The notes under the pieces are model-generated. The model worked only from the letters and a program-made list of their open reading frames with translations, was not told the origin of the DNA and did not search any database. A program made the translations under genes and the position numbers. A DNA stretch of 64,000 bases from Armatimonadota bacterium (lineage in GTDB: Bacteria > Armatimonadota > Fimbriimonadia > Fimbriimonadales > Fimbriimonadaceae): assembly GCA_016223145.1 (NCBI GenBank), contig JACRPN010000001.1:124001-188000 (forward strand), written 5' to 3'. Below, in pieces: positions 7,852-54,110 of this stretch. How positions within the stretch are numbered: position 1 is the first letter of the stretch; each line of letters opens with the position of its first letter.

Positions 7852-7887
7852 CGAAGGGTCGGGCTAGCGGGCGCGGCGGAGAGTGTA

Positions 7888-7995
7888 GGGGTTGAGGAGA
7901 TTAGGAGACGAGGAGATTAAGGGATGAAGAGATGAGGGGATGATGAGGTGATCGGGCTCCTATCTCCTTATCTCTTCATCTCCTCATCCCCTCAA
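7888..7995. repeat. purine/pyrimidine tandem repeats forming an inverted pair
   Basis: A run of GAGGAGATTAGGAGACGAGGAG-type units on the + strand is followed by TATCTCCTTATCTCTTCATCTCC-type units, the reverse complement of the first half. The RNA could fold into a long imperfect hairpin. It separates the binding-protein gene from the GH127 gene in the operon, so it may limit read-through. Confidence 0.6.
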
Positions 7996-43443: not shown

Positions 43444-45012
43444 CTACGCGGTTACGGCCTCCCTCAGGGGCTTGCCTGAGGTCTGGGACTCCTTGAAGAT
43501 CGCGGCGTACTCGGTGTAGGCCTTCTTCATGGCTTCCTCGATTTCGGGGGCCACGGCCTTGGTGGCTCGGATGGATTCGACCACGTCCGGATACTTCTCG
43601 TGGATGTAAGCGACGGCGCCCTTCTCGAACGCGGCGACCTGCTGGTTGGTCACGTCATCCAGATAGCCGCCGGTTCCGCCATAGATCGCGATGATCTCAT
43701 CGGTGACATCGTAGCTGACGTGCAGGTCCTGCTTGAGCAGTTCGGTGAGTCGCTGGCCTCGGATGAGCTGCATCTGGGTGGCTTTGTCGAGGTCGCTGGC
43801 GAACTGGCTGAACGCCTGCACTTCGCGGAAGTTTGCCATCTCGAGCTTCAGCTTTCCGGCAACCTGCTTCATCGCCTTGATCTGGGCGTTGCCACCCACG
43901 CGGCTGACCGAGATGCCCACGTTGATTGCGGGCCGGACACCGGCGAAGAACAGGTCCGGCTCCAGATAGATCTGGCCGTCCGTGATCGAGATGACGTTCG
44001 TCGGGATATAGGCTGAAACGTCTCCCTGTTGGGTTTCGATGATCGGCAGCGCCGTCAAAGAACCGCCTCCAAGCTCGTCGTTGACCTTCGCCGCACGCTC
44101 CAGAAGGCGGCTGTGCAGGTAGAAGACGTCGCCAGGATAGGCTTCGCGTCCGGGGGGTCTCCGTAGGAGAAGCGAGACCGCGCGATAGGCTTGGGCGTGC
44201 TTGGAAAGGTCATCGTAGACCACAAGGGCATGTTGGCCGTTGTCCCGATAAAACTCGCCGATGGCTGCGCCGGCGAACGGCGCCAGGTACTGCATGGCGT
44301 TCGGGTCTGAAGCGCCTGACGCCACGATGGTCGTGTATTCCATGGCGCCGTACTCTTCCAGGGTCGCCACAACGCGGGCCACGGAGGACATCTTCTGGCC
44401 GATGGCGACGTAGATGCAGTACACAGGACTTCCGCCGGGCTCGTGCGTCGACTTCTGGTTGATGATCGTGTCGATCGTGATGGCGGTTTTGCCGGTTTGG
44501 CGGTCGCCGATGATGAGCTCACGCTGGCCGCGGCCGATCGGGATCATCGCATCGATAGCCTTGATGCCGGTCTGAAGCGGCTCAACAACGGGCTGGCGTT
44601 GCACGACGCCTGGGGCGATGACCTCAAGCCGGCGGGTTTCGCTCGCTTGGATCGGGCCCTTTCCATCGATAGGCTGGCCCAGCGAGTTCACGACGCGCCC
44701 GAGGAGCCCCTTGCCGACCGGAAGCTCGATGATGCGGCCGGTTTCCTTGACCGGGTCGCCTTCCTTGATCTCCGAATCCGGGCCGATAAGCACCGCGCCG
44801 ATCGAATCCTCTTCGAGGTTCAGCGCGAGGCCCATGACGCCGCCGGGGAACTCGAGGAGCTCTCCCATCTGCGCATCGGGCAGGCCATAGACGCGGGCAA
44901 TGCCGTCTCCAACCTGGAGGACGGTGCCAACGTATTCGGTCTCGACCTTTCGCTCGAATTTCTCAAGCTCTTGGGTCAGGATCGACGTGATTTCTTCGGG
45001 TCGTATTGCCAT
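43444..45012 (-). CDS. atpA: ATP synthase alpha subunit
   Basis: 522 residues, full length. P-loop [14 protein letters not shown], the alpha-specific [81 protein letters not shown], and the C-terminal helical domain. With the beta subunit it forms the catalytic hexamer, carrying the non-catalytic nucleotide sites. The four-helix-bundle gene separates it from atpH. Confidence 0.97.
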
Positions 45013-45023
45013 GGTGGTATTGA

Positions 45024-45524
45024 TTAGTGGGGTTGATCCCCTTCGAGAAAGTCGTTCTGTGAAAATGGAAAGACTGGTGAGAATGGTGAGAGTTGCTCCG
45101 GATCCAGACCTGCGTAGCTCGCTCGAAGCTCCCTCACCACGTTTCCTTCCACGCGTTCGATCAAGTTGTAGAGTTTGCGTCCCAACAAATGGAGGGTATC
45201 CCTTGCTGCGGCCATCTGCAGTTCCGTCAGATAGCCGAAGTCCTGCGCCAGGATGAGCTGGGTATCGAGCTCGTAAAGGGAACCGCGTGCGACCTTGAGT
45301 GCTTTCACGAACATGCCGGCGCTTTCGTGTCCCCAGCCTTCAGCAATGTTGCTCGGAACGGAAATGGCAGCTCTACGTACTTGTTGCTTTAAGCCATAGT
45401 CCTCAGACTTCGGAAAGAGTGCGCTTAAGTCATAGACCAAGGAAGCCAGTTGGCGGCCGAGTTGCCAGACTTCAAGCTTCTTGAAGCCTTGCGGCTCGAC
45501 GCGCAGTTGTGGCACATCGTTCAC
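45024..45524 (-). CDS. four-helix-bundle protein (S23/IVP family) inserted in the atp operon
   Basis: 166 residues. Residues about 14-125 match the four-helix-bundle family known from intervening sequences of 23S rRNA ([68 protein letters not shown]). Function unknown; such genes spread as small cargo. It sits between atpH and atpA, same strand. The last 20 residues ([13 protein letters not shown]) are translated from CTCACCATT-type repeats, which also lie just before its start. The start is GTG at 45524 with AGGAGG six bases ahead. Confidence 0.88.
45060..45095. repeat. CTCACCATT-type repeat, downstream arm
   Basis: GGTGAGAATGGTGAGA on the + strand, inside the 3' end of the four-helix-bundle gene. 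The same units recur at 45540-45580 and 48950-49050. Confidence 0.6.
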
Positions 45525-45537
45525 TGGCCACCTCCTG

Positions 45538-45579
45538 CAATTCTCACCATTCTCACAACTCTCACCATTCTCACAGTCC
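45538..45579. repeat. CTCACCATT-type repeat, upstream arm
   Basis: Two tandem copies of an 18-base unit TTCTCACCATTCTCACAA in the gap between atpH and the four-helix-bundle gene. Together with the arm at 45060 it brackets that gene. Confidence 0.7.
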
Positions 45580-46134
45580 CTACGCTTGCTTCAACAGCTC
45601 ATACCTGAGCTGATCCTTCATGCGCCTTAGCCCGCCTTTGACGGAGCCGTCTAGAACGTAGTTGCCATAGGCCACGCGAACGCCGGCGATGAGGCCGGGA
45701 TCGACGCGGAACGTCGCCTCAACCTTCTTGCCGGAGGTCTTTTCGAGCTTGTCGACGATTTTCTTGCGGTCGGCGTCCTTCAGCTCGGTCGCTGAAGACA
45801 CCTGCGCGAAGAGCACCTTCCCCTGTTCGCGCCGGATCTCAACGAACCGGTTGCGTACATCGGGGGTCAGGTCTTCACGCCGCTTGGTGACCAGCAGGCG
45901 CAGGGCCGACATCGTGATCTTGGAGAGCTTCGGGCCAAACACGGTCTCCATGATGCGCAGCCTGCGGTCCCTTGGGACGTTCGGGCTGATCATGAAGTCC
46001 TTGAACTTCGCGTCCTGCTCCATCAGGTCGGCAACCAGGTTGAGGTCCTCTTCCACGCGAGCCGTCTCGCCGCCGCGTTCCGCGACGTCGAAAAGGGCCT
46101 GCGCGTAGCGCCGCGCCACTCGCGTGTCGGCCAT
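45580..46134 (-). CDS. atpH: ATP synthase delta subunit
   Basis: 184 residues, normal. N-terminal six-helix domain (VARRYAQALFDVAERGGETARVEEDL) and the C-terminal block GLIAGVRVAYGNYVLDGSVKGGLRRMKDQL match the OSCP/delta family. It ties the peripheral stalk to the top of F1. One base separates it from the end of atpF. Confidence 0.95.
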   Translation of the reverse strand: MADTRVARRYAQALFDVAERGGETARVEEDLNLVADLMEQDAKFKDFMISPNVPRDRRLRIMETVFGPKLSKITMSALRLLVTKRREDLTPDVRNRFVEIRREQGKVLFAQVSSATELKDADRKKIVDKLEKTSGKKVEATFRVDPGLIAGVRVAYGNYVLDGSVKGGLRRMKDQLRYELLKQA

Positions 46135-48954: not shown

Positions 48955-49050
48955 GTGAGAGTTGTAGGAATGGTGAGAATTGTGAGCATTGTCCGGGCCC
49001 AATCTCACCAATCTCACCACTCTCACCATTCTCACCATTCTCACCGCTCG
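48955..49050. repeat. CTCACCATT-type tandem repeats before recG
   Basis: On the + strand GGTGAGAATTGTGAGC units are followed by five to six TCTCACCAATCTCACCA/TCTCACCATT units, an inverted arrangement. This unit also brackets the four-helix-bundle gene 3.5 kb away. An in-frame extension of recG would read it as (LT)n. Confidence 0.7.
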
Positions 49051-49054
49051 CACC

Positions 49055-51154
49055 ATGTCCTCCGCCCCCGGACCTCATAAACGCACACTGGACGACGAGA
49101 TTCAGTATCTGAAGGGCGTCGGACCCAGGAACGCAGGCCTGCTCGCAAAGGTCGGCATCAAGACCGTTCGCGACATTCTGTTCCACCTCCCCAGGCGCTA
49201 TGAGGACAGGACCAAGCTCCCCAAGATGCAGAGCCTGCGCTCCGGCGACGTGGTGACCGTGCGCGGAAAGCTCCTCGGACTGGAGACCAAGCAGGTGCGC
49301 GGCGGGATGGTGATTCTGCGCGCCGTCATCAGCGATGGCACCGGCACGGTCGGGCTCACTTGGTTCAACCAGCCCTGGGTGAAGAAGGCGCTCGAGGGGT
49401 TCAAAGGCGAGATCATCGCTTTTGGCCAGGTCAAGGAATCCGGCTGGACCTACGACATCAACAGCCCCGAGTACGAAAAGGTCGATCCTGAGGATGAGGC
49501 CGAGGGGTTTCAGCGGATCATGCCCGTGTACCCGCTTAGCGAGGGCCTCCCGCAATGGGTGGTCCGAAAGGCTGCCGTGTCTGCCCTGCAGACCCACGCG
49601 GAGCTCCTGGAAGAATCGCTTCCTGCAGCCATCCAGCGGACCCACGGCCTCATGTCCCTCGAACTTGCCATCCAGCGTGTCCACCGGCCCGAGAGCCTTG
49701 AGGACGTAGACGCGGCACGGCGCAGGATGGTCTTCGAGGAGTTCCTGTGGCTGCAACTTGCGCTCGGCATGAAGCGGAACGAGACCCACCGCGAATCTGG
49801 CGAGCCGTTCCCGATCTCGAAGATGGAGGGGCTTTGGGACGAGATTCACAGGATGCTTCCGTTTGAGCTAACCGGGGCGCAAAAGCGGGTCATCGGCGAG
49901 ATCTTCTCCGATCTGGAGGCGCCATTCCCGATGAACCGATTGCTGCAAGGCGACGTCGGGTCGGGCAAGACCGCCGTGGCGGCAGCGGCGATGCTTGCCG
50001 CGGTCCGGTGCGGCTATCAGGCGGCCCTCATGGCGCCAACCGAGATCCTCGCCGAGCAGCACCGGATGAATCTGGAGAGCCTCTTTGCGCCGCTGGGGAT
50101 CGAGGTGGCGCTCTTGGTGGGCAGGCAAACCTCCACGGAGCGAAGAAAGGCCCTGGCGCACACCGAAACGGGCAAGGCCGGCATCGTGATCGGCACCCAT
50201 GCCCTGATTCAAGAAGGCGTCCGTTTCCACAAGCTGGGTTTCGTCGTGATCGATGAGCAGCATCGCTTTGGCGTTCTGCAGCGGGCGGCCCTCAAGGAAA
50301 AGGGGTACGGCAACCCTGACGTGCTGGTGATGACGGCCACGCCCATCCCCAGAACCCTGACCATGACCCTTTACGGCGACCTCGATGTGAGCGTCATCGA
50401 CGAACTGCCGCCGGGGCGAAAGCCGATCAAGACGCACTGGAAGGTGCGCTCGGAGCGCGATTCGGTCTATGAGGGAGTGCGAAAACTCATCGAGGGTGGC
50501 CGGCAGGCGTACATTGTGTGCCCTTTGGTGGCCGATAGCGAAAAGATGCTCGCCCAAGCCGCCGAAGATTTACATTACAGGCTTACGCATGAAACCTATC
50601 CAGATTTTGCGGTAGGGTTGCTGCACGGCCAAATGAAACCCAAGGAGAAGGACGACGTGATGGCACGGTTTCGGGCGGGCGAGGTCCAGGTCTTGGTGAG
50701 CACTACTGTTATCGAGGTGGGGGTCGACGTGCCGAATGCGAGCGTGATGGTCGTCGAAGACGCCAACCGCTTCGGCCTTAGCCAGCTTCACCAGCTTCGT
50801 GGAAGGGTGGGTAGAGGCTCGGCGCAGAGCTTCTGTGTTCTGCTAGGCGACGGCCGGACCGAAGACGCCCAGGCCAGGCTGAGCATTATGTCGGAGACCA
50901 CCGACGGCTTCAGGATCGCAGAAGAGGACCTGAAACTCAGGGGTCCCGGTGAGCTTCTTGGAACCAAGCAAGCGGGCAGTCTGGGCCTAAAAGTGGCCGA
51001 CCTCTTAAAGGACGGCAGGGTGCTTGAGGAGGCTCGTCAGGCGGCGATGCGAATCCTTGAGAACGATCCCGGACTCTCACAACCGGATCACGCAGCGCTT
51101 CGCGAAGGCATGCTGCGACTCCAACCCGAACGCGCCGCCGTCATCACATCCTGA
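49055..51154 (+). CDS. recG: ATP-dependent DNA helicase RecG
   Basis: About 699 residues. N-terminal wedge/OB domain (LKGVGPRNAGLLAKVGIKTVRDILFHLPRRYEDR, VTVRGKLLGLETKQVRGG, WFNQPWVKKAL), Walker A GDVGSGKTAVAAAA, DEQH box in VIDEQHRFGVLQR, motif III MTATPIPRT, and motif VI QLRGRVGRG. It remodels stalled forks and Holliday junctions. The start at 49055 (MSSAPGPHK) was chosen over 48989, whose extra residues are translated from tandem repeats. Confidence 0.95.
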   Translation: MSSAPGPHKRTLDDEIQYLKGVGPRNAGLLAKVGIKTVRDILFHLPRRYEDRTKLPKMQSLRSGDVVTVRGKLLGLETKQVRGGMVILRAVISDGTGTVGLTWFNQPWVKKALEGFKGEIIAFGQVKESGWTYDINSPEYEKVDPEDEAEGFQRIMPVYPLSEGLPQWVVRKAAVSALQTHAELLEESLPAAIQRTHGLMSLELAIQRVHRPESLEDVDAARRRMVFEEFLWLQLALGMKRNETHRESGEPFPISKMEGLWDEIHRMLPFELTGAQKRVIGEIFSDLEAPFPMNRLLQGDVGSGKTAVAAAAMLAAVRCGYQAALMAPTEILAEQHRMNLESLFAPLGIEVALLVGRQTSTERRKALAHTETGKAGIVIGTHALIQEGVRFHKLGFVVIDEQHRFGVLQRAALKEKGYGNPDVLVMTATPIPRTLTMTLYGDLDVSVIDELPPGRKPIKTHWKVRSERDSVYEGVRKLIEGGRQAYIVCPLVADSEKMLAQAAEDLHYRLTHETYPDFAVGLLHGQMKPKEKDDVMARFRAGEVQVLVSTTVIEVGVDVPNASVMVVEDANRFGLSQLHQLRGRVGRGSAQSFCVLLGDGRTEDAQARLSIMSETTDGFRIAEEDLKLRGPGELLGTKQAGSLGLKVADLLKDGRVLEEARQAAMRILENDPGLSQPDHAALREGMLRLQPERAAVITS

Positions 51155-53590: not shown

Positions 53591-53715
53591 GCCGCCTTTG
53601 GTGTGCGGCGACCTTGCGCCGCTTTGGGCACTGCTCGCTTTGCCGTGATCAAGAGACCCCATAGGTAACCCGTGGTGCAGACTCTCCGTCTTCCATCCCA
53701 AAGCCGCATGACGAA

Positions 53716-53786
53716 CGGAGAGAGGGAGAAAGGGAGAGAGGGAGAAAGGGAGACAGGGAGAAAGGGAGAGAGGGAGAAAGGGTGAA
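53716..53786. repeat. AGAGGGAGAAAGGG tandem repeat
   Basis: A 14-16 base unit GGGAGAGAGGGAGAAA repeats about five times with few changes. It is the most regular repeat tract of the window. Confidence 0.8.
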
Positions 53787-54110
53787 AGCGACAGCCCATG
53801 CTGAGCGCAGACTGTCGTCGCTAGACGCCATTCGGCAGCAGGCCCGAGCGGCCGTCGAAAAGGAAGAAAGAAAGCGCCGGCAGGTTCGGGCGGTTTATTT
53901 GAACCTGCTCGGCGCTATCTCTGGTATTCCACTCAGGCTCAAGCATGGCCCCAGTAACGTCACCGGGTATCTGGTAACCCGCAAGCAGAGGTTCAAAGTG
54001 GGACTGGCAAGGGCCGTTCCTCCCGGTGCAGGGCGCATGGGACGACTCAGACTGAGAAGGACGGCCATGCTTCGCGGCGTTCCCAGCACTCCAAGTGCCA
54101 ACATGAAACC

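Follow-up and report, generated by a model that had tools for sequence, protein, structure and literature searches.

What does a gene of the 23S rRNA intervening-sequence protein (IVP) family do inside an ATP synthase operon, and what are the short repeats around it? The question is raised by 64,000 nucleotides of an Armatimonadota bacterium (assembly GCA_016223145.1, contig JACRPN010000001.1, positions 124,001 to 188,000), hereafter called the window. The preliminary description of this DNA had placed such a gene between atpH and atpA on the same strand, and family matches and coordinates bear this out. The open reading frame at 45024-45524 on the minus strand starts with GTG and matches PF05635 (23S_rRNA_IVP) in a Pfam profile search with an E value of 2.5e-32, as well as a second family, TIGR02436; its domain spans about 45168-45482. 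Upstream lies atpH (45580-46134, minus strand) and downstream atpA (43444-45012, minus strand). The product is small and helical and has a relative of known structure (2gsc); PF05635 was its only Pfam match, and neither a nuclease, transposase or reverse-transcriptase domain nor any other recognisable catalytic domain was found. Among the IVPs of the same bacterial family, its closest relatives are encoded at groES-groEL junctions. A role in ATP synthase, considered unlikely from the outset, finds no support.

The repeats are built from a 9-nt unit. The sequence CTCACCATT occurs six times in the window compared to 0.32 expected copies, a number that was reached in none of 100 shuffles, and all six copies fall at three places: a 5' arm upstream of the IVP gene (45537-45576), a 3' arm (45057-45096) and an array before recG (48955-49056). 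Repeats had been reported before the gene start, within its 3' end and before recG, and each of the three sites indeed holds copies. The 5' arm consists of about four units, which read GTGAGAATG in the sense of the gene; it lies 3-5 nt from the atpH stop codon and is separated from the GTG start by a Shine-Dalgarno-like sequence, AGGAGGT (45530-45536, minus strand). The 3' arm is an inverted copy of the array, lies inside the open reading frame and encodes the C-terminal tail of the protein. The claim that repeats bracket the gene was thus correct as to position, but did not include the inverted orientation of the two arms, which are mirror images of 40 nt with 85% complementarity, a perfect 19-nt core and 440 nt between them. 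The predicted RNA fold has a z score of -4.6 and is closed by both arms. On the plus strand the 3' arm is followed by TTGCTCCGGATCC, the centre motif of solo hairpins, one of which is the recG array, where the same 9-nt unit forms a gene-less hairpin that lies before recG and reads into it. The window also contains 8-nt arrays at 7887-7995 and 53714-53791, which match the units belonging to L005 and L006, two further IVP genes of the same genome.

The history of the junction was approached by reading the atpH loci of 29 relatives, in 28 of which atpA was visible as well. The atpH-atpA gap measures 7-79 nt in 27 relatives, 191 nt in one and 570 nt in the window genome, and none of the 28 relatives has an IVP gene in it. 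This makes the gene an insertion of its own lineage rather than a fixed, repeat-free component of the operon. The relatives lack the insert, but the nearest of them are so diverged (atpH 54-55% identical) that the comparison yields neither the base-exact ends of the insert nor a defined target-site duplication, as would be expected of a classic insertion sequence or MITE.

A comparison of many IVP loci connects the arrays to the gene. Loci were collected from the window genome, its family, its phylum and named metagenome-assembled genomes, and in the 153 left after removal of duplicates the left flank was locally aligned to the right flank in reverse complement; the threshold was set at the 99th percentile of scores from 444 control placements. 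Inverted matches flank 128 of the 153 loci (84%, compared to about 1% of controls), while 16% stay below the threshold; direct orientation gives 6.5% and mispaired flanks 2.2%. These loci are best hits related by descent, so that the counts do not represent independent events. Inverted flanks were found in all groups: at 10 of 13 loci in the window genome, 39 of 48 in the family, 57 of 63 in the phylum and 22 of 29 in named genomes of other phyla. Most of the matches are arrays in which a unit of 7-11 nt, specific to the locus, is repeated in tandem, most commonly with period 7, and the arms are G-rich when read towards the gene at 116 of the 128 loci. IVP genes on cyanobacterial plasmids were counted apart, and all eight (L240-L247) exceed the threshold; where their flanks were inspected, heptamers such as GGGAACA and GGGTGTA are seen in inverted orientation to the left and right of the gene. 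The similarity of the arms is weakly correlated with protein identity (Mantel r 0.18, reached in 0 of 999 permutations), and the kinship of units thus follows that of the proteins over short distances only. Phage records gave no IVP match, and a search for near-identical IVP copies inside one genome, which would fix the element boundaries, returned none, as well-aligned copies at distinct places belonged to different genomes. Weaker PF05635 matches of about 26-32 bits were also seen (L011-L013, L235-L239), two of which (L011, L012) appear to have their left array within the reading frame. It had been suggested to look for the bundle gene with these flanking repeats at other sites; inverted arrays are common there, and their unit differs from locus to locus.

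Arrays without an IVP gene provide a second line of evidence. In 464 kb sampled from the window genome (stretches C5, C15 and the window), 47 such loose arrays were found, the arrays flanking the window IVP and one other IVP gene (L009) being left out of the count. Two thirds of them (66%) match, with a score of at least 16, one of the 13 IVP units of the same genome, and about a third match none; random sets of 13 units from other genomes match 10%. Sampling of genomes rich in IVP genes gave 11 arrays in 393 kb, spread over 8 of 20 segments, and that of genomes lacking IVP genes gave none in 369 kb (0 of 20 segments), an association rather than proof, as the two sets differ in phylogeny. Two close relatives (G001 and G002), with 96.6% identity between them across about 384 kb of alignment, showed no array indels and hence no recent movement, but the comparison says little on this point, as both are nearly free of arrays (0 in 400 kb and 1, respectively).

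These data bear on the idea that the arrays arise by replication slippage and act as passive hot spots, into which another agent drops IVP genes. Tandem repeats of 7-11 nt are prone to slippage. Heptamer copy number also varies between Coxiella strains (PMC4990558). This origin nevertheless leaves the unit-matched inverted arms at 84% of IVP loci, the empty 369 kb of IVP-less genomes and the near-absence of arrays in G001 and G002 to be explained, and it is very improbable. The preliminary description had offered two readings of the repeats, traces of gene movement or pre-existing hot spots for insertion. The first gains from an insertion unique among 28 relatives and from the prevalence of inverted arrays; the second fits poorly because the unit is locus-specific, the arms match within each locus and the sampled IVP-less genomes hold no arrays. 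The ends of an element are a better reading of the repeats.

Gene-less arrays resemble this element in structure. A CCGG/TCCG-like centre was found in 8 of 9 hairpins of the 9-mer examined and also at the inner end of the 3' arm, as expected if the hairpins are the element without its gene. Three of these hairpins lie in frame inside dtd (L017, 1198-1785), nadA (L021, 1081-2265) and tilS (L015, 1267-2955), where they add roughly 24-50 residues that are missing from solved relatives of Dtd, NadA and TilS. Further arrays occur at nuoH/nuoJ and nuoJ/nuoK, and array pairs can enclose cargo other than IVP: inverted heptamer arrays surround nuoJ in one case (L296, 1559-2526) and an uncharacterised reading frame in another. 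The groES-groEL junction is found in three states in related genera: empty (17-45 nt), with IVP and arrays, or with arrays alone. Many relatives (L075-L098, L348-L366) have an IVP gene with genus-specific arrays directly after the groES stop codon, the unit differing between genera while both arms match within each locus. Arrays alone are represented by a 151-nt junction with AAATCGT heptamers on both sides (L355), a 91-nt junction with array remnants (L359) and the second groES-groEL junction of the window genome, which holds a hairpin of the window 9-mer. Gene-less relatives of the IVP element are the best reading of the loose hairpins.

A regulatory function could account for part of this picture. 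IVP would be a nucleic-acid-binding regulator, the dispersed arrays in operon gaps its regulon and its own arrays a site of autoregulation, with no need for gene mobility. The positions of arrays in the gaps of the atp, nuoH/nuoJ, nuoJ/nuoK and groES/groEL genes, a 5' arm at a median of 48 nt from the IVP domain and the matching loose arrays for each IVP would all be compatible with it. Yet inverted arms to either side of the gene are superfluous for a regulon, the in-frame arrays in Dtd, TilS and NadA look like selfish insertion, and units turn over between genera at groES-groEL. Such a regulon is therefore considered unlikely.

If the arrays move, they might also be moved in trans by other enzymes, with IVP as a mere adaptor for RAYT/Y1 transposases or a reverse transcriptase. 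The Avd protein of diversity-generating retroelements, likewise small and helical, is considered a relative of IVP. Twelve Y1 transposase matches were found in the window genome, and IVP and Y1 counts are weakly correlated across genomes (partial r 0.27 given genome size). Two genomes with at least three IVP genes (G157 and G186) lack a Y1 match. Most Y1 genes of the window genome have inverted palindromic repeats at their flanks in which no significant 7-11 nt periodicity is seen, a single flank (L379) scoring 19.5 against the L009 unit and the others below 16. A reverse transcriptase as partner was rejected, since the window genome, 97% complete, has no RVT_1 match, by which it differs from Avd systems; RVT_1 is also absent from 16 of 30 genomes with at least three IVP genes. 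Mobilization by either enzyme is hence quite doubtful. The layout resembles that of REPIN/RAYT systems, in which a single gene is also bracketed by a short repeat in inverted orientation, and the repeat is dispersed gene-less in the genome. The window gene, however, encodes an IVP (PF05635 only) and not a Y1 HUH transposase, tandem units of 7-11 nt take the place of a palindrome in its repeat, and the RAYT-like loci of the genome are separate from its IVP loci. These RAYT-like genes (L378-L389), most with inverted palindromic repeats at their flanks, form a parallel system of the same layout.

Another close known system is the 23S rRNA intervening sequence (IVS). In Coxiella burnetii, the IVS contains an S23p reading frame, 28-bp terminal inverted repeats and tandem heptamers (GACAGAT) just upstream of the reading frame, and is excised by RNase III (PMC4990558). 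According to Warrier et al. (PMC4990558), neither what IVS elements do nor where they come from is clear, and their paper cites the idea of a once-mobile IVS (Ralph and McClelland, 1993). The window element shares with the IVS the IVP/S23p family (PF05635), a reading frame inside stem-forming terminal inverted repeats and short tandem repeats just upstream of it. It differs by its location outside rRNA, in a protein operon, by tandem arrays that form both arms and by dispersed gene-less arrays. The Coxiella IVS fits the same plan, and the 23S rRNA IVS is best read as a special case of the IVP element with inverted arrays. In the open-licence PMC literature, no paper was found that generalises the link between IVP and arrays or extends the layout beyond rRNA.

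Taken together, the IVP gene and the two inverted arrays of the 9-nt unit around it probably constitute one selfish element, about 515 nt long, which inserted into the atp operon of this lineage. The linkage of array and gene is well supported, and mobility, RNase III processing and binding of IVP to the array are inferred. In the transcript, the arrays would pair into a stem with the IVP gene in the loop, and by analogy with the 23S rRNA IVS, which is removed from its transcript without ligation, RNase III may cut the stem-loop out of the RNA, which would allow the operon to tolerate the insert. IVP itself may bind the G-rich array unit and help to copy array or hairpin DNA to further sites, probably assisted by host replication or repair enzymes, and gene-less hairpins would be carried along in trans.

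Short-unit tandem arrays are also known from other bacteria. The STRRs of cyanobacteria are heptamer tandem repeats. The TAACTGA repeats of Beggiatoaceae are likewise heptamers (PMC4679880), and both share with IVP arrays a dispersed, mostly intergenic distribution of 7-nt tandem arrays. The proposal made here is that these repeats, too, may be linked to an IVP gene; the TAACTGA paper mentions neither S23 nor a helix bundle. More broadly, and with somewhat less confidence than would tip the balance in its favour, IVP genes with inverted 7-11 nt arrays might form a distinct and widespread class of mobile elements, which encode neither a transposase nor a reverse transcriptase for their spread and have given rise to many of the short-unit tandem arrays of bacterial genomes, heptamers in particular, the 23S rRNA IVS being one lineage that landed in rRNA. 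Both the short-unit tandem arrays and the function of IVP/S23 proteins have been poorly explained so far. The proposed link suggests why hairpins of a 9-nt unit occur in operon gaps and in frame within housekeeping genes, and since each IVP names its own repeat unit, binding, spread and excision become assayable.
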